Shown here: positions 35,245 to 35,816 of the stretch, piece after piece
Layout: every line of letters starts with the position of its first letter
Position numbering within the stretch: position 1 is the first letter of the stretch
Origin: an uncultured Clostridia bacterium
GTDB lineage: Bacteria > Bacillota > Clostridia > TANB77 > CAG-508
Length of the DNA: 58,546 nt
Direction of reading: 5' to 3'
Assembly: GCA_947631785.1 (NCBI GenBank)
Contig: CANRMR010000007.1
Span: 1-58,546, forward strand
The notes under the pieces: generated by a model
Told to the model about the DNA's origin: nothing
The model's database searches: none
The model's input: only the letters and a program-made list of their open reading frames with translations
Program-made: the position numbers and the translations under genes

Positions 35245-35286
35245 TTTTCTTCTCCTCCTTGTTTTACAACATTTTTATTTTTTATC

Positions 35287-35363
35287 ATTTTCATTAGAAT
35301 TTATGCGTAAATTTTCGTAAGCGACGAAGTTTATCATTATTTTTAAAATTTATAATCCTTTGC
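35287..35363. repeat. fold-back element, truncated copy 1
   Basis: Only the right half (from TTTTCATTAGAATTTATGCG to CCTTTGC) of the 193-bp element is present. Confidence 0.85.
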
Positions 35364-35432
35364 TTTGCTATAAATAAATAATTTTTCTAAAATTTATGTT
35401 ATTAAAAATATAAGATATTTTTTTGTGGTTTT

Positions 35433-35506
35433 TGGGCAGACAGAGGCGTCTGCCCCTACACCTGTATGATATTTTTTTGTGGATTTCTGGGCACGGTGCC
35501 CCTACA
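35433..35506. repeat. two palindromic GTAGGGGC repeats
   Basis: 35433-35460 has stem GGGCAGAC/GTCTGCCC. 35489-35506 is a short form, GGGCAC/GTGCCC. Both end in cctaca on the plus strand. Confidence 0.88.
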
Positions 35507-35548
35507 TGCACATTTGTTTTTGTACATGCGTTAAATTTTTTAAATGCA

Positions 35549-35624
35549 AAAATAGAACCAAATTCCATTTTGGCATTTTGATTTTTTATATCAAAAATAC
35601 ACAAATGGAACTTAGTTCTATTTG
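35549..35624 (-). terminator. attenuator-like hairpin before target 1
   Basis: A 21-bp stem AAATAGAACTAAGTTCCATTT / AAATGGAATTTGGTTCTATTT (slightly imperfect) is followed by TTTTTGC on the minus strand. The stop of the small leader ORF (35586) falls in its loop. Recurs at 40170-40247 and 58172-58243 with compensatory changes. Confidence 0.75.
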
Positions 35625-35747
35625 TTTTTTATCTATTCTATTTACATTATTTGACTTTTTTTCTTTTAATATATTACTTGTGTGTGTGTGTGTGTGTGTG
35701 TGTGTGTGTACTCCTGCAAGGGTTTTAGCGTTTACTTTTATTTTCAT
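35586..35747 (-). CDS. phase-variable leader peptide 1, open frame, (CA)15
   Basis: 53 codons: MKIKVNAKTLAGV, five His-Thr pairs from (CA)15, then SNILKEKKSNNVNRIDKK and QIELSSICVFLI. GGAG lies 10 bases before the ATG and a SigA promoter 41 bp upstream. The 30-nt CA tract is a multiple of three, so the frame stays open through the first arm of the downstream hairpin. Two other copies (40288-40359, 58279-58338) share start, repeat and downstream codons but are closed by slippage. The peptide itself may be unimportant. I infer a regulatory leader whose translation blocks the terminator. Confidence 0.72.
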   Translation of the reverse strand: MKIKVNAKTLAGVHTHTHTHTHTSNILKEKKSNNVNRIDKKQIELSSICVFLI

Positions 35748-35787
35748 TTGTTTCTTTCTCCTCTTTTTCTTTCTTTTTATATTTATT

Positions 35788-35816
35788 TTTATATCATAAC
35801 ATTTTGTCTTTTGCAA
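35788..35816 (-). promoter_or_regulatory. promoter of the target 1 leader
   Basis: TTGCAA, 17-bp spacer, TATAAA. The same arrangement is conserved at 40396-40424 and 58374-58402. Confidence 0.8.

Follow-up and report, generated by a model that had tools for sequence, protein, structure and literature searches.

A predicted phase-variable transcription attenuator upstream of surface-protein genes, including a DGR target, in an uncultured Clostridia lineage

Simple repeats inside genes are known to cause frame-shift phase variation, as in opa and LPS genes. In E. coli pyrBI, the terminator hairpin is kept from forming when a ribosome translates as far as the attenuator, with the UTP level setting the coupling. 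A simple repeat also causes frame-shift phase variation at the pilus G-tracts of Bifidobacterium breve (PMC9187656). The closest precedent is pil1 of Streptococcus gallolyticus, whose mechanism is proven: repeat variants, a terminator deletion and a start-codon mutant behaved as predicted, the terminator deletion gave 11-fold more RNA, and stop insertions abolished heterogeneity (PMC3894217). The pil3 locus has the same arrangement (Danne et al. 2014, PMC3894217). At both, an out-of-frame change in a GCAGA repeat (22 and 13 units) lengthens the leader, with the stop then lying in or by the hairpin and transcription on. Our search of the open-access literature returned no similar system beyond pil1/pil3.

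Here we describe a module in a 58,546-nucleotide window (the whole stretch of DNA analysed) from an uncultured Clostridia bacterium, which shares with pil1/pil3 the succession of a promoter, a slippage-repeat leader ORF, a premature stem-loop terminator and surface-structure genes. A start codon and a Shine-Dalgarno (SD) site precede a tandem-repeat leader in front of a terminator-like hairpin, the repeat number places the leader stop either far upstream of the hairpin or within or at it, and this number differs among near-identical paralogs. By its predicted mechanism the module is a pil1-type switch, an analogue rather than a demonstrated homologue, since the likeness is one of mechanism and the repeat units differ. 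Like pyrBI, it would rely on a ribosome blocking the hairpin; unlike pyrBI, the repeat number would set the frame. Whereas pil1 and pil3 serve two pilus operons in one species, the module, known here from sequence, uses (CA)n or (GA)n, occurs in 16 copies in a 1.44-Mb genome, is spread through a family and has one copy at the target of a diversity-generating retroelement (DGR). The mechanism is not new in kind, given the proven precedent (PMC3894217). New features are the dinucleotide tracts, the modular design with 16 uses in a single small genome, deployment throughout a lineage, occurrence beside switches fused directly to genes behind the same promoter, and the layering on a DGR. What is proven for two pilus operons of one Streptococcus appears here as a genome-wide regulon, which in these small-genome uncultured Clostridia has probably evolved independently.

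The module upstream of target 1 and its DGR

All parts of the module lie on the minus strand, in the order given by the original prediction (promoter, GGAG site, (CA)n ORF, 21-bp hairpin, target gene). A predicted promoter, TTGCAA-17-TATAAA (35788..35816; TTGCAA at 35816-35811, TATAAA at 35793-35788), is followed by a GAGGAG site (35763-35758) and by a leader ORF of 53 aa (35586..35747, ATG at 35747, MKIKVNAKTLAGVHTHT...ICVFLI) that is currently open. TRF and frame analysis place a (CA)15 slippage tract, read as His-Thr codons, at 35679..35708, and folding predicts a terminator-like hairpin with a 21-bp outer stem and a U-rich tail at 35550..35623, with TTGCATTT 3' of it. As had been foreseen, the (CA)15 ORF stays open to a stop in the hairpin loop, a TAA between the arms (ON-frame stop, 35588-35586). 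The leader ORF reaches the loop if n = 0 mod 3 and otherwise ends 2 or 10 nt past the tract, in agreement with the claim that any other CA count would halt translation right after it.

The hairpin has a folding energy of -31.5 kcal/mol (z = -7.4), and none of 200 shuffles was equally stable. The target-1 leader without the 3' arm folds only weakly (-14.2 vs -35.9 kcal/mol). Since the U-tract after the hairpin is broken up (UAUUUUUGCAUUU), terminator strength is uncertain. Rfam returned only sub-threshold chance matches for the hairpin (NrrF, 30.9 bits; cut-off 60). A gap of 300 nt separates the hairpin from target 1, whose ATG (35244) lies behind AAGGAGGAG. Short palindromic repeats GTAGGGGC(AGACGCC..GTCTGCCC / GATTTTAATCGCCC / ACGG..CCGTGCCC) occupy the leader-to-gene gaps at 35150-35500 and 39700-40150 of the window and in many module copies, and within gene N-termini they are translated as VGADASVCPN.

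Target 1 (33520..35244, minus strand) encodes a 574-aa surface protein with a pilin-like N-terminus and an FGE/C-type-lectin-like C-terminus, its PF03781 match (E 9e-4) being below the curated cut-off. That this gene is a DGR target was also part of the original prediction, and the DGR beside it is genuine. It comprises a reverse transcriptase (31828-32943, plus strand, Pfam PF00078 E 1e-19), the accessory protein bAvd (31460-31855, plus strand, Pfam PF22296 E 2e-20), a template repeat TR (33242..33383, minus strand) and the VR of target 1 (33520-33661, minus strand). TR and VR are 88% identical over 142 bp, and 15 of the 17 mismatches fall at TR adenines. In its RT, bAvd, adenine-specific mutation between TR and VR and C-type-lectin-like target end, this DGR resembles known ones; it differs in that expression of its target is predicted to be phase-variable too. 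Since the DGR target would be under a random switch, variation in the display and in the form of one protein could be measured together. Two VR-like sequences elsewhere in the genome, C12:36992-37133 (L236) and C16:1536-1661 (L235), are 69-77% identical to the target-1 VR with many A-site differences. The C12 sequence is part of a phase-variable gene with a fused (GA)n tract, so switching may extend to a second DGR target. At the contig end, window positions 1-1170 hold a tandem array of 13 copies of a 90-bp unit with 92% matches.

Module copies and frame geometry in the home genome, and tract length among paralogs

A module search of the 1.44-Mb home genome revealed at least 16 cassettes, with 16 full leader-plus-hairpin copies (14 distinct hairpins) and several partial ones. 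Thirteen full copies carry CA tracts (n = 4, 4, 8, 8, 8, 8, 10, 10, 10, 12, 14, 15, 15), and three carry (GA)14-17 with different leaders (C13:13471, C18:33277, C9:13287) and follow the same frame logic despite the other tract and leader. Besides the target-1 copy, two of the 16 lie in the window on the minus strand, both closed: the second (40171..40424, (CA)14) upstream of an FGE-like gene at 38281-39798, and the third (58172..58402, (CA)8) upstream of a surface gene at 56104-57732. A 6S RNA gene (Rfam RF00013; window 40455-40646, minus strand) is found directly upstream of the second copy. Target genes start 60 to about 500 nt past the hairpin, and nearly every one carries an SD of its own. 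The readable ones nearly all encode surface proteins of pilin-like type, often FGE/C-type-lectin-like at their ends and in one case with an LPKTG-type C-terminus. Scans of viral contigs for the leader and hairpin gave no matches.

Spacing within the module is kept in frame. The start-to-tract distance is constant at 39 nt across all CA copies, and the tract-to-hairpin distance of 34, 40, 46 (as in the 40171 copy), 55 or 100 nt equals 1 mod 3 in 16/16 copies. Two frames close before the hairpin in every one of the 16, and the third ends exactly 35 nt into it; closed-frame stops fall 2-17 nt past the tract, or 47 and 55 nt past it in the chimeric copy C9:13287. Indels before the ON-frame stop are multiples of three, a rule limited to that side. 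Since hairpin length (71-77 nt) is free to vary beyond this stop, with no mod-3 constraint, selection on frame appears to end at the loop stop. Covariation across the 14 home-genome hairpins was no better than in shuffles and is uninformative because these sequences are too alike, and the case for the hairpin therefore consists of folding, pairing maintained against slid controls, and recurrence.

The frame is open in 4 of the 16 copies: C7:35549 (target 1), C9:51998, C11:578 and C9:13287. Because three quarters of the leader ORFs are out of frame, the ORF is unlikely to be needed for its peptide. Closed frames predominate both here and in the relatives described below, which is what a switching tract would give and a required ORF would not.

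The original prediction held that tract length should vary, and between paralogs it does: among pairs with at most 11 differences in 160 flanking bases, repeat number was unequal in 11/13, assembled tract lengths being possibly consensus values. Near-identical flanks enclosed n of 9/14, 11/10/17, 16/14 and 12/10, and two pairs of recent duplicates had the same n. Tract length evolves faster than the flanks.

Recurrence in related genomes

Of 117 family genomes, 48 had anchored tracts (GT-N-CACAC...), with a reversed control near zero, and such tracts were absent from the sampled class genomes outside the order; leaders related to the module were seen in three further families of that order. 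From 99 distinct loci in these relatives, we retained 64 in which a strong hairpin with a U-rich tail accompanies a short open frame, and compared them with dinucleotide-shuffled spacers (500 shuffles). At 60/64 loci, two frames were closed and the third reached the hairpin to within 12 nt, compared to 32.5±3.4 loci in the shuffled spacers (maximum 42 in 500). The third frame ended inside the hairpin at 38/64 loci, against 14.5±3.3 for the shuffled ones. When one locus was taken per hairpin cluster, with clusters drawn roughly by shared 9-mers, 24/27 fitted the pattern against 11.1 expected. Four of the 64 loci did not fit, some ON-frame stops fell short of the 5' arm by a few nt or lay far beyond the hairpin, and the frame was open in 23/80 short leaders.

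The hairpins of relatives, including those in other genera, are unrelated in sequence, and the frame geometry is kept. Leader peptides diverge strongly from cluster to cluster, so what is conserved is where the stop falls and not the peptide. The switch anatomy proposed for the target-1 locus is far beyond chance, with 16 full copies at home and unrelated hairpins framed in the same way elsewhere. Each of its sequence-level predictions (one open and two closed frames, indels in threes before the stop only, a stop inside unrelated hairpins, tract lengths that vary between paralogs) held on these further data. Among the first genes behind relatives' hairpins, 47/50 have a hydrophobic N-terminal segment, vs 12/36 window genes, and 27/50 have the pilin-like GITLIALIITIIVLLILAG pattern.

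Otherwise unrelated terminator hairpins have in common a TTTTTGCGTG-like string 3' of them, for example at L100, L107, L115, L146, L214 and L222; its form in the home genome is TTTTTGCATTT. The loci L103, L107 and L195-L197, from three genera, have unrelated leader bodies with a common N-x-(I/V)-R-D-G-stop end, inside or just before the hairpin. Many of the relatives' MAG contigs end about 30 nt or less from a tract (for example G132 C3/C5/C15, G095 C10/C18, G106 C12), a pattern that repeated modules or a mixture of tract lengths could produce by breaking the assembly.

Proposed transcription attenuation, alternative readings and fused switches

We hypothesize that the module is a phase-variable transcription attenuator in which slipped-strand change in the leader ORF sets attenuation, and from the sequence we hold this to be very likely. 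Transcription would start at the conserved promoter, and the leader ORF with its dinucleotide tract would be translated behind RNA polymerase. With an open frame (n = 0 mod 3 in CA copies), the ribosome would enter the hairpin and stop in or near the loop; the terminator could then not form, and polymerase would continue into a surface gene with its own Shine-Dalgarno (ON). Slippage to another frame would end translation right after the tract, leaving a naked hairpin to form and transcription to stop (OFF). The DGR would separately diversify the ligand-binding end of the surface protein. The original prediction had called this translational attenuation, a name that we correct to translation-controlled transcription attenuation. 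Anatomy, frame constraints, paralog tract variation, recurrence and the DGR signature have direct support. We infer that the promoter and the terminator are active, that tracts slip within a population and that expression switches.

A different possibility is that the leader acts otherwise after initiation, with an in-frame ribosome protecting the mRNA, suppressing Rho-dependent polarity or reinitiating, and that the hairpin is not the decisive terminator. Polarity after out-of-frame slippage, as in meningococcal siaD, is a plausible alternative, and by frame data alone any such role of the leader would look like intrinsic termination. However, in unrelated families the tract leads to a stable hairpin that has a U-rich tail and contains the open-frame stop, and reinitiation is not needed since nearly all target genes have their own SD, 60 to about 500 nt past the hairpin. 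In S. gallolyticus, moreover, it was removal of the terminator that raised RNA 11-fold (PMC3894217), and we consider this possibility improbable.

Less probable again is that the small ORF and terminator form an independent peptide gene and that the downstream gene has its own promoter. The 300-nt gap before target 1 would leave room for this, and the peptide C-terminus (KQIELSSICVFLI) is conserved in the genus, but promoter-like sites in that gap were not above chance. Most copies would make no such peptide because 12/16 tracts are out of frame, and other genera keep the stop in the hairpin with completely different C-terminal residues. We rejected this reading. A classical attenuator sensing histidine or threonine charging is barely credible: his/thr leaders do have tandem His or Thr codons, which the His-Thr run resembles, but n ranges from 4 to 15 in place of a fixed regulatory-codon run, (GA)n copies code Glu-Arg instead, a clear competing antiterminator helix was not found (the target-1 leader is only weakly folded once the 3' arm is removed), and the downstream genes encode surface proteins and not biosynthesis; this reading was rejected as well.

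If the module is a transcription attenuator, n mod 3 is a sequence rule that would let metagenomic reads show, for each surface gene, whether it is predicted to be on or off. Given the at least 16 cassettes in the genome and the family-wide recurrence, random on-off switching of many surface proteins is probable. We think it fairly likely that a transplantable cassette of promoter, slippage leader and attenuator has spread in one uncultured Clostridia lineage, so that dozens of surface genes, a DGR target among them, are each switched on and off independently and at random, stacking random expression on targeted hypermutation of the same protein.

The promoter motif TTGCAAAA-N8..12-TATGATATAA occurs at 23 sites in the home genome, compared to 0 for a reversed-pattern control; some 20 of these sites stand in front of a tract/leader module or one of its variants. 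Six more surface genes have the same promoter and a tract, (GA)n or short (CA)n, fused to the gene without a hairpin (C3:10202, C12:35182, C14:43410, C18:10871, C26:14754 and C16:1730; L059, L061-L065). Two frames are closed and one is open into the gene, and the present frame is closed in 6/6; here the frame obviously decides expression. The fused (GA)n genes use slipped-strand change in a short repeat as within-gene switches do (opa, LPS, B. breve), whereas the attenuator copies carry their repeat in a decoy ORF apart from the gene and so leave the protein sequence untouched. A (CA)13 tract at C2:23692-23744 (L039) lies in open frame at the N-terminus of an apparent acyltransferase-3-like membrane protein, which looks like a classical phase-variable surface-modification gene.
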